From positions 1 to 20,020 of the IMG/VR virus record IMGVR_UViG_3300037502_000465: a stretch of DNA of 20,020 bases, one strand, 5' to 3'. Shown here in pieces: positions 4,855 through 19,933 of this stretch (positions are counted from its first letter, which is position 1; every line of letters begins with the position of its first letter). The position numbers and the translations under genes were made by a program. The notes under the pieces are model-generated. The model ran no database searches, had not been told where the DNA came from, and worked only from the letters and a program-made list of their open reading frames with translations. Source of the stretch: a virus.

Positions 4855-5631
4855 TTAGCGTCTGCGTTGTGCCTCGTACTTCTTGATCTGGCGCAGCCGT
4901 TCCGCTTCAATCCATTCCGACGTTGACATGGCCTTTACAGACCGCGGGTCGGTGGTGTCATAAGCAGGCGTACCAGAGGTACGGGCTGTCACCGGAGCAA
5001 TCGGCGCCGGGGCGGTTGTGGTCTTCTTGGCCGGTGGATTGGAAGCCAGTTTGGCCTCAATCTTCCCGATTTCCCGTGCCTGCAAGAGCGGGTTGAGACG
5101 CGCGATCCGTTCGGCTTCCTTGGGATTTGACCCGAGATAATAGATTACATCGGGACCGATCTCGGATGCCTGAATGGTTTGCGCCATCGTTTCCGTGACA
5201 GGGAGCTTAGGGTTGTAGGCGACCTGTTCAAAGTCGTCATACTTGCCGCGGGCTTCCTCTTCACGGTCGTGATAAGCTTCAAGCGTTGCCTGACGTTCGG
5301 CCTCTGCTTCCCGCTGCGCAAGAAGTTCCTGCGCTTTGCGTTCGGCAAGGGCGTCAGCGTAGGCTTGCGCATCAGCAAAGTTATCGGGCTTCAGCGGTTC
5401 CGGCGGCGGCGCCGGGGGCGGCTGGGCTTTCAACTTCTGCGCTTGCTCTCGCTCCCATTTCCGTTGCTCTCTTGCGAGACGTTTGCCAACGATGGCGTCC
5501 AGTTCTTCCTGAGTGAAGGTCTTGGGCGCTTCCGTAGGCGTCGGTTCCGGCGGTGTATCTGGTGCGGCAACAGGTTCAGCCGTGGGAGCCTGTTCCGGCG
5601 CGGGCGCACCCGCTAGTTCGTTCTCAATCAT
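4855..5631 (-). CDS. capsid scaffolding protein
   Basis: A 258-residue protein. Residues 1-40 are Pro/Ala/Glu-rich and probably disordered. Then comes TFTQEELDAIVGKRLARE, a signature seen in many phage scaffolds, and a long charged helical zone (about 55-135) with repeated Glu, Gln, Ala and Lys. The C terminus (STSEWIEAERLRQIKKYEAQ, then RRR) is a basic helix of the kind that binds coat protein in P22 scaffold. The protein would fill the procapsid and leave before or during packaging. No protease motif is seen in it or beside it. It lies directly upstream of the coat gene. A GAAAGG sequence lies about 9 bases before the ATG. Confidence 0.86.
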   Translation of the reverse strand: MIENELAGAPAPEQAPTAEPVAAPDTPPEPTPTEAPKTFTQEELDAIVGKRLAREQRKWEREQAQKLKAQPPPAPPPEPLKPDNFADAQAYADALAERKAQELLAQREAEAERQATLEAYHDREEEARGKYDDFEQVAYNPKLPVTETMAQTIQASEIGPDVIYYLGSNPKEAERIARLNPLLQAREIGKIEAKLASNPPAKKTTTAPAPIAPVTARTSGTPAYDTTDPRSVKAMSTSEWIEAERLRQIKKYEAQRRR

Positions 5632-15581: not shown

Positions 15582-15839
15582 TTAACACTTCCACCGTCTC
15601 ATGGAGGCTTTCGCCCGTTCTGCGTTCTTCGATTTGGCTACAACACCGCCCATACGGGCACAAAAGCTGGCCTTACGGCCCTTGTCAGCCTCGGTCTTGG
15701 GGTTCGGAGCCGGCGGCTTCAGCTTTGACCCCGTGGCGCGGTTGTACTTGGCGCGTCCCTTGGCCGTCAGGCCAGCACCTTTGGAGACGGGCAGCTTTTC
15801 GCCCCGTCCGACCGCGAGAGAGACGCTTTTGCGCGCCAT
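15582..15839 (-). CDS. DUF6321-like small basic phage protein
   Basis: An 85-residue protein, MARKSVSLAVGRGEKLPVSK, then GAGLTAKGRAKYNRATGSKL, PNPKTEADKGRKASFCARMG and an RRWKC ending. The succession GLTAKGR.KYN..TGS.LK.P, P....ADKGR..SFCARM and W.C is distinctive, and I assign it to the phage family DUF6321 from memory. The two Cys residues (in SFCARM and at the C terminus) are conserved in that pattern and might bind metal or form a disulfide. The start overlaps the terminase stop by one base (TAATG). It sits two bases from the next gene. The function is unknown. Confidence 0.82.
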   Translation of the reverse strand: MARKSVSLAVGRGEKLPVSKGAGLTAKGRAKYNRATGSKLKPPAPNPKTEADKGRKASFCARMGGVVAKSKNAERAKASMRRWKC

Positions 15840-17365
15840 TACGACCCCATCCAGGAGTTGAGGACACTTGATTGACCATACGAACGTTTGACGCGGTTGT
15901 CAACGCGCTCGGTTCTGGAGGCCACGGGGAACGCGAATGTAACGGCTATCGCGTCCGCGGCGTCGGGGCTTGCGAGACCACGGGCTTTCATATCCTTCTT
16001 GCTTTCGAGGAAAATCGTGCCCTTGCTGTCCGGCTTCATCAGCGGCGAAATCAGGTCCGTTTTGAGGAGGCGGTCGTTCGGGATGCTTGCGGTCTTCAAC
16101 CATTCCCGCATCGTCCCCCACATCTCGGCCCGCTTGTTACCGTACATGACAGGCTTTGCCGACTTGTTCCCAAAGTTCACTCCCTTGACCTTGTACCGCT
16201 GCTCCTTCAGCCGGTCCACGACGCCTGCCCCCAGCCCACCTTCGTCGATCACCACCAGCGCCGGCTTGTAGGTCTCAATCGCGTCAATGACGTGCCCCAC
16301 GACCTCCATGGTGTCATCGCCCCGGTGCCGCTTGATCGAGATTATGTCCCTGCCCTGCCGGACAGCAATGACCGTAGCGTCGGCGCCGAAGCGTGCCGGG
16401 TCCACGCCAATGACCACGGGCGCGGAAGGATCGGCGAAGCGGGGTCGGGACATAGCCTCATCGACGACAGATACCGATATAAACTGGTCATCGCCAGCGC
16501 TGGGGAACTGACCGTAGACCTCAACATGGGCTTGAACGCTGTCAGGACCGTACTCGTGGATGATCTGCTCATAAATCTGCTTGTCCGTTCCTTCGACCGA
16601 CCGGGCGTCAACGATCTTGTTTCGCCAGAAGTCGCGCTTTGCGTTGAAACATTCGTAGAAATAGCCCGTGTTGCGGCGGGGGTTGGAGAACGCCATCCAG
16701 AAGCGGTGCGGCGTGTTTTCGGTGAAAAAGCCTTGCGCCACCTGCCAGATGCTGTCCGAGATACCGCTGGCTTCGTCGAAGATCAGCATCACGCCGTCGA
16801 AGTTGTGCACGCCCGCGTAGGCGTCCGGGTTCTCTTCCGACCACAGCCGGCCCTCGACGCCCCAGTAGCGCGTGCCCTTCTGCAAGTCGCGTTCGACCAG
16901 TTCGGCCAGCCACTTGGCAGGCGTGACGCGCGTTGCGCTGATCTCAAACCAGTGGCTGTTCATCGCCAGTGCCAGCCACTTGGTAATTTCAGCCCATGTG
17001 ATGGACCGCAACTGCGTCTCGCTGTTGGCCGACACAAGGGTCGTTGACCCAATCCGGGTCGTCAACATCCAGATCACCAGCCAGCTTACGAGGGCCGACT
17101 TGCCGATGCCGCGGCCTGAACTGACCGCCTGCCGGAACGTGTCGAAGTTGATCTTGCCCTGGTTCTGCTTGATGTGCGCTGTCAGGTCCAGCAGCACCTC
17201 GCGCTGCCATCGCCGCGGCCCGTCGAAGTGTTCCAGCGGCGTGCCCTTCTTGCCCCACGGGAACAGCAGCATCACAAAGGCCAGCGGATTGTCCTTATAC
17301 TGCGGCGACCACAAGGTCGCCATCAGCCGCTGCTCGTCCTCGGGGCTATAGACTGTGGTCTGCAC
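15839..17365 (-). CDS. terL: terminase large subunit (ATPase-nuclease packaging motor)
   Basis: A 508-residue protein counted from a GTG start. The Walker A loop GRGIGKS lies at about residues 84-90 and the Walker B strand VMLIFDE at 192-198. The nuclease domain shows GVDPARFG (Asp at about 322), VVIDEGG (Asp at about 374) and SPDAADA (Asp at about 468 and 471), the usual RNase-H-type acid set. The enzyme cuts concatemeric DNA and pumps it through the portal. I choose GTG at 17363-17365 because GAGGAGG lies 9 bases upstream; an in-frame TTG at 17383 would add six residues but lacks a better site. The start overlaps the small terminase gene by 20 bases. The following basic gene overlaps by one base. 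Confidence 0.94.
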   Translation of the reverse strand: MQTTVYSPEDEQRLMATLWSPQYKDNPLAFVMLLFPWGKKGTPLEHFDGPRRWQREVLLDLTAHIKQNQGKINFDTFRQAVSSGRGIGKSALVSWLVIWMLTTRIGSTTLVSANSETQLRSITWAEITKWLALAMNSHWFEISATRVTPAKWLAELVERDLQKGTRYWGVEGRLWSEENPDAYAGVHNFDGVMLIFDEASGISDSIWQVAQGFFTENTPHRFWMAFSNPRRNTGYFYECFNAKRDFWRNKIVDARSVEGTDKQIYEQIIHEYGPDSVQAHVEVYGQFPSAGDDQFISVSVVDEAMSRPRFADPSAPVVIGVDPARFGADATVIAVRQGRDIISIKRHRGDDTMEVVGHVIDAIETYKPALVVIDEGGLGAGVVDRLKEQRYKVKGVNFGNKSAKPVMYGNKRAEMWGTMREWLKTASIPNDRLLKTDLISPLMKPDSKGTIFLESKKDMKARGLASPDAADAIAVTFAFPVASRTERVDNRVKRSYGQSSVLNSWMGS

Positions 17366-17792
17366 GTGGCAGCGCCTCCTCAACCATCTCCGTTGCCGTC
17401 AGGTCCAGCACCTGACCAACGCGTCGCTGCGCCTCCTCCAGCGCTGCCGTGATGCTGATGCGCTGCTCGACGTTGATCTCGACGGCCTGCTTGGCCACCC
17501 AGTTGTGGGCGTGACGCAGCACCTCAAGCGCCGCCTTGGTGTCGCCCGCCTGCGCCGCCGTGTAGAGGGTCGTCGCCATTTCGCGCTCCCCGTCCGCACG
17601 TCCCTTCTGCTCGGCATACTCCGCGATGGGGTCAAACTGCACAAGCTGCCGGTATTCCATGGGTAGCATCCCTGCGGCGAGTGCCAGCGCGTCACCCTTC
17701 AGGCCGACCTTGGCGGCGTTGTAGATTGCCTCCAGGCGCGCCTCCGTCGCCTTCAGCGCGCGCGGCTCATATGGCAGAGAGTGGAAGGTCAT
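17346..17792 (-). CDS. terS: terminase small subunit (probable)
   Basis: A 148-residue helical protein directly upstream of terL. Residues about 10-55 (RALKATEARLEAIYNAAKVG, then LKGDALALAAGM) look like a helix-turn-helix DNA-recognition region. A helical middle follows (about 60-105). The end, VEINVEQRISITAALEEAQR, is the kind of C-terminal strand-helix seen in several phage small terminases. These proteins form rings that recognise packaging sites and control terL. Overlap of 20 bases with terL suggests coupling. No SD is visible before the ATG, and a promoter-like pair 12-35 bases upstream would put the transcript start at or next to the ATG (see 17799-17827). Confidence 0.78.
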   Translation of the reverse strand: MTFHSLPYEPRALKATEARLEAIYNAAKVGLKGDALALAAGMLPMEYRQLVQFDPIAEYAEQKGRADGEREMATTLYTAAQAGDTKAALEVLRHAHNWVAKQAVEINVEQRISITAALEEAQRRVGQVLDLTATEMVEEALPRADHSL

Positions 17793-18080
17793 GACTGTAA
17801 ACTAAACCGTTTTGTTGTTGGCTGCAAGCGTTAAGAAGTTTGTTGTGCGTTGAGCAAAGTTTTTGTTTGTGAGGTTAGCTAAAAAATAAAAAAGTTTTTG
17901 TGATCCCTTGCCACAGCAACAGCAGCGCGCGCTGGCCCTGTCCCCCCCCTGCCCTTCGCGCCCGCAACAAAATGCTGCACTGCACACAGCTATCAACCGA
18001 GAGTTGTCTGCTACTCGCGGAGCGGGAGTTTTGTATATGCTACCTTGCGTTGTGGCTCATGTGCCATGGACCTTTCTGGT
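17793..18080. other. intergenic control stretch upstream of terS
   Basis: No gene that I would accept lies here. The part next to terS is T/A-rich on the plus strand, with three related AAGTTTKTTGTG-like words (17836-17847, 17857-17871, 17892-17902) and an A-rich run (17881-17893) that may bend DNA. Further right lies an eight-C tract (17942-17949) and GC-rich sequence with no stem of note. It separates the late transcript from the small gene at 18081-18341. Confidence 0.5.
17799..17827 (-). promoter_or_regulatory. candidate late promoter for terS, near-leaderless
   Basis: On the minus strand TTGCAG (17827-17822) is followed after 17 bases by TAGTTT (17804-17799), then 6 bases and the terS ATG. 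A start about 7 bases beyond the -10 would give a leaderless or nearly leaderless mRNA, which would explain the absent SD. The -10 match is modest. Confidence 0.4.
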
Positions 18081-18341
18081 TTAGCGCCACTTGGCGCGAT
18101 TGTTCAAGGTGAGGGTGAGAGCCGGCATACCGTGCGCTTGCACGGTTACGTACAGGTAACCTTTCGGCGTGCGATATGCGAGCGCCACCGTAGCCGGCAA
18201 CATGGGCGCAAGCCTGGCAACAATTGCCCGGAATTGCGGCCGCGTCATCAAGTGGTCCGTTGGCACGGATATGAGCCATTGCCGCAGCGCCATTTCAGTG
18301 TGCACGGCGGTAGGCGGTAAAAGATGGGTTTTGGTTGCCAT
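18081..18341 (-). CDS. small hypothetical protein in control region
   Basis: An 86-residue protein, MATKTHLLPPTAVHTEMALR, then QWLISVPTDHLMTRPQFRAI and VARLAPML, ending NNRAKWR. I choose ATG 18339-18341 because GAGG lies 5 bases upstream; an upstream ATG at 18398 lacks one. A helical first two thirds is followed by a beta segment (GYLYVTVQAHGMPALTLTLN). No motif identifies it. An opposite-strand frame (18045-18320) overlaps it but has no SD at its start and reads as an antisense shadow. Location beside the repeat-rich region suggests a regulatory or early gene, which is inference only. Confidence 0.55.
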   Translation of the reverse strand: MATKTHLLPPTAVHTEMALRQWLISVPTDHLMTRPQFRAIVARLAPMLPATVALAYRTPKGYLYVTVQAHGMPALTLTLNNRAKWR

Positions 18342-18365: not shown

Positions 18366-18395
18366 CGTACTTCTACACGAAAACGTAGATGTACG
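18366..18395. promoter_or_regulatory. inverted repeat, candidate operator
   Basis: Arms CGTACTTCTAC and GTAGATGTACG (11 bp, one mismatched pair) flank 8 bases. The left arm continues as AACCGTACTTCTACAC, which recurs with 14 of 16 matches at 18468-18483. The site lies 25 bases upstream of the small minus-strand gene at 18341, where a regulator could act. Confidence 0.45.
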
Positions 18396-18420
18396 CAAGG
18401 GTCAGTGTGCAGGGGCGGTT

Positions 18421-18438
18421 ATGGGTCATATGGGTCAT
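18421..18438. repeat. tandem 9-bp iteron-like repeats
   Basis: ATGGGTCAT occurs twice in perfect tandem (18421-18429, 18430-18438), followed by the partial copy CTGGGCAC. The inverted relatives AACCCATT and TAACCCAT lie at 18540-18555 on the other side of the AT-rich core. Confidence 0.7.
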
Positions 18439-18539
18439 CTGGGCACACCCTATAAATCCCCAGTAGTAACCGTACATTTACACTTCTATAATACTACCGT
18501 ATAAATACAGTTACATTTCTTATATAGTACTATAATGAT

Positions 18540-18555
18540 AACCCATTTAACCCAT
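18540..18555. repeat. inverted counterpart of the iteron-like repeats
   Basis: AACCCATT followed by TAACCCAT. Read on the minus strand these are ATGGGTTA-type words, matching the ATGGGTCA core of the tandem repeats at 18421-18438. Confidence 0.6.
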
Positions 18556-18634
18556 AAGGGTGAATTTAAAAGCTTTTAGCACCGCCCGGCCACGCCCATG
18601 TCGTTACCCCGCATAACCCCGATGAGCACCCAAC

Positions 18635-18663
18635 AAAAAGCCCCGCAGCTTGCGCCGCAGGGC
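18635..18663 (-). terminator. rho-independent terminator for the minus-strand 46-residue gene
   Basis: On the minus strand GCCCTGCGGC and GCTGCGGGGC pair over 10 positions (two of them G-U) around a GCAA loop, followed at once by TTTTT. It lies about 47 bases past the stop at 18710 and would shield the AT-rich region to its left from read-through. Confidence 0.83.
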
Positions 18664-18709: not shown

Positions 18710-18850
18710 TCAATAGACGCGGCGCAACTTCTTAAACTCCACCGCAAAGCCATTATTGACGTACAGCGGCACAATCTGAAAGCGGTGCTGGTTGGCGCCA
18801 ATCCAGTTGGCTTGATCGTGAGCCGTCTTGAAGCGCTTGATCGTCCACAT
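18710..18850 (-). CDS. 46-residue small phage protein
   Basis: The frame reads MWTIKRFKTAHDQANWIGAN, then QHRFQIVPLYVNNGFAVEFK and KLRRVY. The strong SD (AGGAAAGGA) lies 7-10 bases upstream, a promoter pair lies 30 bases further up and a terminator follows, so it looks like a complete single-gene unit. The pattern (helix with a W, then YVNNGFAVEFKKLRRVY) is one I know from tiny phage proteins of unknown function. It is divergent from the plus-strand early genes. Two longer frames over the same bases (18688-18975 and 18753-18938) lack SD sites and are rejected. Confidence 0.75.
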   Translation of the reverse strand: MWTIKRFKTAHDQANWIGANQHRFQIVPLYVNNGFAVEFKKLRRVY

Positions 18851-18931: not shown

Positions 18932-18960
18932 TTGACATGCACGCGGCGTGCTGGTAGGGT
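18932..18960 (+). promoter_or_regulatory. early promoter with inverted repeat in the spacer
   Basis: TTGACA (18932-18937), a 17-base spacer and TAGGGT (18955-18960). The spacer holds GCACGC and GCGTGC around one base (18939-18951), placed where a repressor would block RNA polymerase. The -35 is perfect; the -10 matches three of six positions. Confidence 0.6.
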
Positions 18961-18968
18961 TATCCACA
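18960..18968 (+). promoter_or_regulatory. perfect DnaA-box sequence
   Basis: TTATCCACA fits the strong DnaA-box consensus TTATNCACA exactly. It starts at the last base of the -10 and covers the expected transcription start. A second copy follows the promoter at 19894-19923 in the same position. Confidence 0.6.
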
Positions 18969-19893: not shown

Positions 19894-19923
19894 TTGACGG
19901 GCGACACATGTCGCCCGTATATT
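19894..19923 (+). promoter_or_regulatory. second early promoter
   Basis: TTGACG (19894-19899), an 18-base spacer and TATATT (19918-19923); GTATAT at 17 bases is an alternative. The spacer is almost wholly occupied by a 10-bp-arm palindrome. The layout parallels the promoter at 18932-18960. Confidence 0.6.
19897..19918. promoter_or_regulatory. 22-bp palindrome in promoter spacer (operator and/or terminator)
   Basis: Arms ACGGGCGACA and TGTCGCCCGT are perfect over 10 bp around a 2-base centre (CA). It begins 7 bases after the stop of the previous gene, so as RNA it could end that transcript. As DNA it lies exactly between -35 and -10 of the next promoter. Confidence 0.6.
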
Positions 19924-19924
19924 C

Positions 19925-19933
19925 TTATCCACA
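19925..19933 (+). promoter_or_regulatory. perfect DnaA-box sequence, second copy
   Basis: TTATCCACA lies 1 base after the -10, covering the predicted start of transcription. Flanking bases also match the copy at 18960-18968 (TTATCCACAT, then AACA after 0 or 1 base). Confidence 0.6.

Follow-up and report, generated by a model that had tools for sequence, protein, structure and literature searches.

We propose that a P22-like podovirus very likely has a replication origin, perhaps not its only one, at positions 18421 to 18555 of the window, and that the iterons there would be read by the phage's own primase-helicase. The window, by which we mean the whole stretch of DNA analysed, comprises an entire IMG/VR record (20,020 bases) and represents part of the genome of a tailed, uncultivated water phage. 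Computation shows a conserved module in a conserved place, repeats that are not the product of chance, conserved arms around a diverged core, out-of-sample covariation between the iterons and the wing of a helicase, and a predicted winged helix in that helicase. Physical binding, melting, a bidirectional start and autonomous replication from the module are inferred.

The module is built of two pairs of 9-bp iterons. On the terS side lies a tandem pair on the plus strand (ATGGGTCAT ATGGGTCAT, 18421-18438, copies at 18421-18429 and 18430-18438) and on the early-gene side an inverted pair, ATGGGTTAA ATGGGTTAT on the minus strand (18538-18555). Read on the plus strand, the inverted copies are ATAACCCAT (18538-18546) and TTAACCCAT (18547-18555), i.e. 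ATGGGTTAa/t twice. Both pairs are the same in the closest relative, L159, and the 21-nt arms (18419-18439 and 18537-18557) are 86% complementary. When the entire 20-kb window was searched for modules, defined as any tandem pair of 9-mers followed after a gap of 55-130 bp by an inverted 9-mer pair (maximum score 54), 18421-18555 was the top-scoring module (47/54). First-order Markov shuffles of the window gave a mean of 35.9 (n = 60, sd 1.7, max 41) and, in a larger set, of 35.8 (n = 400, max 44), with 0/400 scoring 47 or more; likewise, 0/2000 local shuffles reached the score of the module. An earlier sequence-only reading, made by a model without database searches, had described perfect tandem copies at 18421-18438 and inverted copies at 18540-18555 framing roughly 100 strikingly AT-rich bases. 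A sequence check upheld the tandem copies, the inverted ones start slightly further left, at 18538 (coordinates right within two bases), and the AT-richness also held.

The 99-bp core between the iteron pairs (18439-18537), the presumed DNA-unwinding element, is 66.7% AT compared with 43.8% for the window. Judged by AT content, the AT-richest 60 bp (18476-18535, 78% AT) would likely be melted first; only 0.03% of the 60-mers of the window are as AT-rich, and of all its 99-mers the one with the highest AT content begins at 18473. Tandem short repeats above chance and a neighbouring AT-rich stretch (67%, with a sub-stretch of 78%) are the marks of an iteron origin, and both are present. Split into fifths, the core has AT fractions of 0.80, 0.75, 0.75, 0.50 and 0.53 in the window and 0.71, 0.76, 0.63, 0.44 and 0.53 in the mean of 51 relatives, and in both the AT peak adjoins the iteron pair on the early, helicase side. 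The sequence-only reading had further singled out a near-perfect inverted pair inside the core, TATAATACTA (18487-18496) and TAGTACTATA (18525-18534). The pair exists (9/10 match), but its significance did not hold: an equally good pair occurs in 29% of shuffled cores and there is no conservation in the nearest relative, L159. The inner dyad was therefore rejected as a functional element.

GTACWTNTAC-type half sites were also observed at 18367-18395 (two, inverted, just ahead of the ORF at 18341) and at 18472-18481 (one, within the core); conceivably they are the operator of the ORF at 18341.

Some 600 bp upstream of terS, the module occupies the hub at which late and early genes diverge. The late genes (terS, terL, portal, coat and tail) are oriented leftward, starting near 17.8 kb, and the small early genes are oriented rightward, starting near 18.99 kb. 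On the minus strand are the large terminase subunit (15839-17383, used as the anchor in the search for relatives), a candidate small terminase subunit (17346-17792, assigned by position, with homologues adjoining terL in relatives) and an 86-aa ORF between the origin and terS, at which the late direction begins (18081-18341, with homologues in the same place in relatives). To the right of the module, also on the minus strand, a hairpin resembling an intrinsic terminator (18640-18663) separates the origin from a 46-aa ORF (18710-18850) that shares 85-89% identity with its counterparts in relatives. Two early promoters were recognised in the plus-strand sequence, TTGACA-17-TAGGGT (feature 18932-18968) and TTGACG-18-TATATT (feature 19894-19933). 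Directly behind the -10 of each lies a perfect DnaA box, TTATCCACA (18960-18968 and 19925-19933), and both boxes are kept in L159. A standalone DnaA domain IV, mimicking host DnaA, could perhaps regulate these promoters. The phage does not fit a satellite lifestyle, having its own terminase, portal and capsid genes. Its TerL is closest among named phages to MW202483 (80%) and phage DSL-LC05 OR003940 (66%), and no named phage matched the hub at the DNA level.

We then compared the hub with those of relatives, comprising 80 loci in viral contigs found via TerL (locus handles begin with L). Their hubs contain tandem 9-mers around AT-rich cores, built from different words (e.g. TTGGGTCAT, GTGGACAAT, TTCGGCAGT and CTAGGCATT), and the module sits between the PrimPol-D5-helicase gene and terS. 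Of 60 hub windows, 57% scored 42 or more, compared with 0/332 control windows of equal length from the same loci (max 40), and a helicase-anchored set of relatives gave the same placement of the module. The search for the repeats in relatives that the sequence-only reading had suggested found the exact word mostly absent from TerL relatives, yet the module architecture recurs at the same place with other words. The absence was at first read as non-conservation; it arises because the word changes, and the variability between phages is far greater than that reading could have known. A 7-mer enrichment scan detected the arrays in relatives and missed the four copies of the window itself. The interpretation of the module as an origin in the sequence-only reading is well supported by these comparisons, although the replication start is inferred. 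The suggestion of an initiator encoded further right is also supported, since the PrimPol-helicase gene of relatives lies 2-5 kb beyond the module, with early genes between, on the side at which the window is cut off. The absence of an initiator from the window is explained by its early end: the record extends only about 1.5 kb beyond the module and does not reach the replication genes. Relatives do encode the putative cognate initiator on the same replicon. The proposed GC-skew check was uninformative, as complete relatives show no skew turn at the module.

The closest relative, L159, was found through its helicase and offers the most detailed comparison. Along 1,271 bp that include the terminase genes it is 91% identical to the window, and most other patches are at 84-92%. 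Both 19-bp arms are 100% identical, whereas the core between them has diverged and is not well alignable. Conserved arms and a diverged but AT-rich core would be expected if the origin is bound by a protein and contains an element that melts. The helicase gene of L159 ends 3.4 kb from the module and is adjoined by a gene for a standalone DnaA domain IV without an AAA+ part (4949-5336, minus strand), which is also found in most of the clade. This protein may be a second DNA-binding player.

The identity of the reader rests on covariation. When the remainder of the C-terminal half was controlled for, distances between iteron words tracked distances between wings (L018 residues 726-740), the partial rank correlation being 0.47. 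The short tail behind the wing reached up to 0.39, and elsewhere in the C-terminal half the value was at most 0.25. For the 15-residue wing window, 1000 label permutations gave a maximum of 0.21 against the observed 0.47. The best partial correlations with the iteron word were 0.27 for TerS, 0.37 for TerL and 0.45 for the helicase wing. A scan of the whole protein revealed that a second helicase stretch (271-290 in L018 numbering, zinc-finger-like) correlates with the iterons at a similar value. For an out-of-sample test, two further scans supplied 40 new non-redundant module loci, and training phages with more than 85% helicase-body identity were excluded. Iterons predicted from the phage with the nearest wing were correct at 7.13 of 9 bases, compared with 4.76 for the nearest body and 5.31 for a random phage (p = 2e-7); the advantage of wing over body was also positive in the training set, but weaker.

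In a mutual-information analysis of 91 loci (effective number 46) and helicase columns 481-768, the strongest pair was wing residue 6 and iteron base 1 (z 8.1), followed by wing residue 4 and iteron base 3 (z 5.6). At residue 6, R is paired with G at base 1 in 37/37 loci, G with T in 12/12, V with C in 4/4 and A with A in 19/23, whilst K at residue 4 is paired with G at base 3 in 55/55. These counts are of loci and not of independent events, and the p-values overstate independence. The R-G pairing, and the KSRxxD(T/S/N)KKH wing with GTGGACAAT, recur across clearly different helicase bodies (e.g. L045, L040 and L306), and the V-C pairing is likewise seen more than once, with differing neighbours (L077 and L222). 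That the C-terminal domain of the helicase specifies the iteron word is thus supported by statistical covariation that holds out of sample; binding itself is inferred.

A DUF5906 helicase was found in 36/50 records, including nearly all of the long ones, and has about 770 residues where complete. In Foldseek searches with a full-length model the N-terminal part matches AEP primases and the part further on matches NrS-1, D5 and SaPI5 PriRep1 helicases, with hits to NrS-1 (6k9c, profile E 1.5e-8, Foldseek E 2e-9) and to PriRep1 on dsDNA (7pds). In the AlphaFold2 prediction, the local confidence of which is good here, the last 130 residues form a winged helix, with the covarying segment as strand, wing and strand. 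Foldseek of this domain returned mostly winged-helix DNA-binding proteins, as weak class-level matches, and no specific relative. By structure prediction, Foldseek and profile search, L159 thus combines a primase, an SF3/D5 helicase and a C-terminal winged helix in one protein.

We envisage that this PrimPol/D5-type helicase would bind the iterons through its C-terminal winged helix, the wing loop setting which 9-mer is read; iterons and wing would change together because of this. One helicase ring may assemble per iteron pair, the two opposed on either side of the AT-rich core, although neither the number of rings nor the order of events has been demonstrated. If SaPI Rep and P4 alpha are a guide, the two rings would melt the core and start two forks, making replication bidirectional, with primers made by the N-terminal primase domain. 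Any help from the DnaA-like protein has likewise not been demonstrated. The helicase gene of the window would lie beyond the right end of the record, to judge from the nearest relative about 3.4 kb past the origin. Several points count against this reading: this helicase is outside the record, helicase stretch 271-290 also correlates, there is no experiment, some relatives have weak module scores or longer or differently arranged arrays, the GC skew does not turn, 2-5 kb separate the module from the helicase gene, and the neighbouring standalone DnaA domain IV could also bind DNA there.

Four other explanations were weighed. The module could be a packaging site (pac or cosB), at which the small terminase subunit binds the repeats and starts packaging. 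Terminase-binding repeats exist in other phages, the module is close upstream of terS and repeat arrays often reach toward terS. However, the iteron word covaries with a helicase loop and shows no local peak in TerS, as a packaging site would require, and a better cos or pac candidate is the distinct, conserved G-rich element that lies between the repeats and terS; we regard packaging as very improbable. Equally improbable is an operator without origin function, at which a repressor or activator switches between the rightward early and the leftward late operons. In its favour, the module lies where early and late genes diverge and a weak promoter-like site on the minus strand (18564-18535) overlaps it. 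Against this, the clear early promoters are at least 400 bp away and the module has no more promoter-like matches than expected by chance, the covariation partner is a replicative helicase and not a regulator, and a core that varies in sequence yet stays AT-rich fits melting better than a promoter.

An origin bound by the phage's standalone DnaA domain IV (Bac_DnaA_C) instead of the helicase has some circumstantial support, as this protein is encoded 3-5 kb from the module in eight TerL-anchored relatives (L003, L007 and L011 among them) and by most of the window's clade, L159 included, and the iterons are 9-mers like DnaA boxes. Nevertheless, family searches did not find it in L018, L044 and L016, relatives with very strong modules, and it was rejected as a universal iteron reader for this reason. 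DnaA boxes with one mismatch or fewer lie outside the module, the perfect ones being at the two early promoters, so that this is not a DnaA-box origin, and the density of such boxes did not separate phages with the DnaA-like protein from those without. This too we hold to be very unlikely. A chance or low-complexity artefact can be all but ruled out: short repeats are common in AT-rich DNA, and the inner dyad is indeed chance, but no whole-window or local shuffle reached the score of the module and the arms are identical in L159 around a diverged core. A helicase-read origin thus remains the preferred reading.

Iteron origins and self-loading primase-helicases are already known. SaPI Rep helicases bind origin iterons through their C-terminal domain (PMC7581432), and the winged helix of P4 alpha binds origin repeats before unwinding and priming (cited in PMC4234260). 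The SaPI origins of Staphylococcus with Rep/PriRep1 resemble that of the phage in pairing an AEP primase and D5-type helicase with a C-terminal domain that reads iterons, binding being inferred for the phage. However, the SaPI origin is directly downstream of the helicase gene, an arrangement absent from the phage, in which 2-5 kb and early genes intervene. The phage also differs in being autonomous, P22-like and from open waters, in its symmetric core module of two inverted 9-bp pairs, and in having a word that has diversified across the whole family together with a wing code that can be read. P4 shares a winged-helix primase-helicase at origin repeats, but alpha has a TOPRIM primase and P4 is a satellite, whereas the phage is autonomous and its primase is predicted to be AEP-like. 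The NrS-1 primase-polymerase and poxvirus D5 helicases are the closest solved structures to the helicase part, and in the literature searched neither has an iteron origin read by the wing of a winged helix. Iteron plasmid origins (RepA/RepE/TrfA class) likewise place tandem iterons beside an AT-rich opening element; in the phage no Rep_3-type initiator was found, and the iterons are 9 bp long, flank the core as two inverted pairs and would be read by a helicase. A family-wide variable iteron origin in autonomous podoviruses, with a wing-to-base code, is undescribed in the literature searched, though absence there is no proof.

The origins of most uncultivated phages are unknown; in this case sequence alone suffices to place one and to name its putative reader. 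Dozens of natural variants tie the specificity of the reader to two residues, which yields a testable recognition code for winged-helix primase-helicases, such that natural sequences reveal part of a protein-to-DNA code. It may serve for annotating origins in many metagenomic phages and as a system in which to study the reasons for the diversification of origin specificity. A bolder reading, towards which we lean only slightly, is that in these abundant water phages the origin word is hypervariable and follows a simple rule from wing residue to base (R-G, A-A, G-T and V-C at base 1; K-G at base 3), giving co-existing phages many origin types predictable from their helicases and possibly an escape from incompatibility among relatives that co-infect or from origin theft by satellites.

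Lastly, further elements were observed at the hubs. The hubs of L082 (MW202483) and L065 contain 11-12 copies of GTTTACA that are not arranged as two inverted 9-bp pairs, and therefore origin architecture varies within the group. L002 has tandem copies of a 15-bp unit, CGGCTGCCGATCGCC, between the iterons and terS, at about -990 to -890 from terL. Just upstream of terS in the window, at about 17930-17960, is the G-rich element AGGGCAGGGGGGGGACAGGGCC (minus strand), a possible cos or pac site, which has counterparts in many otherwise diverged relatives.
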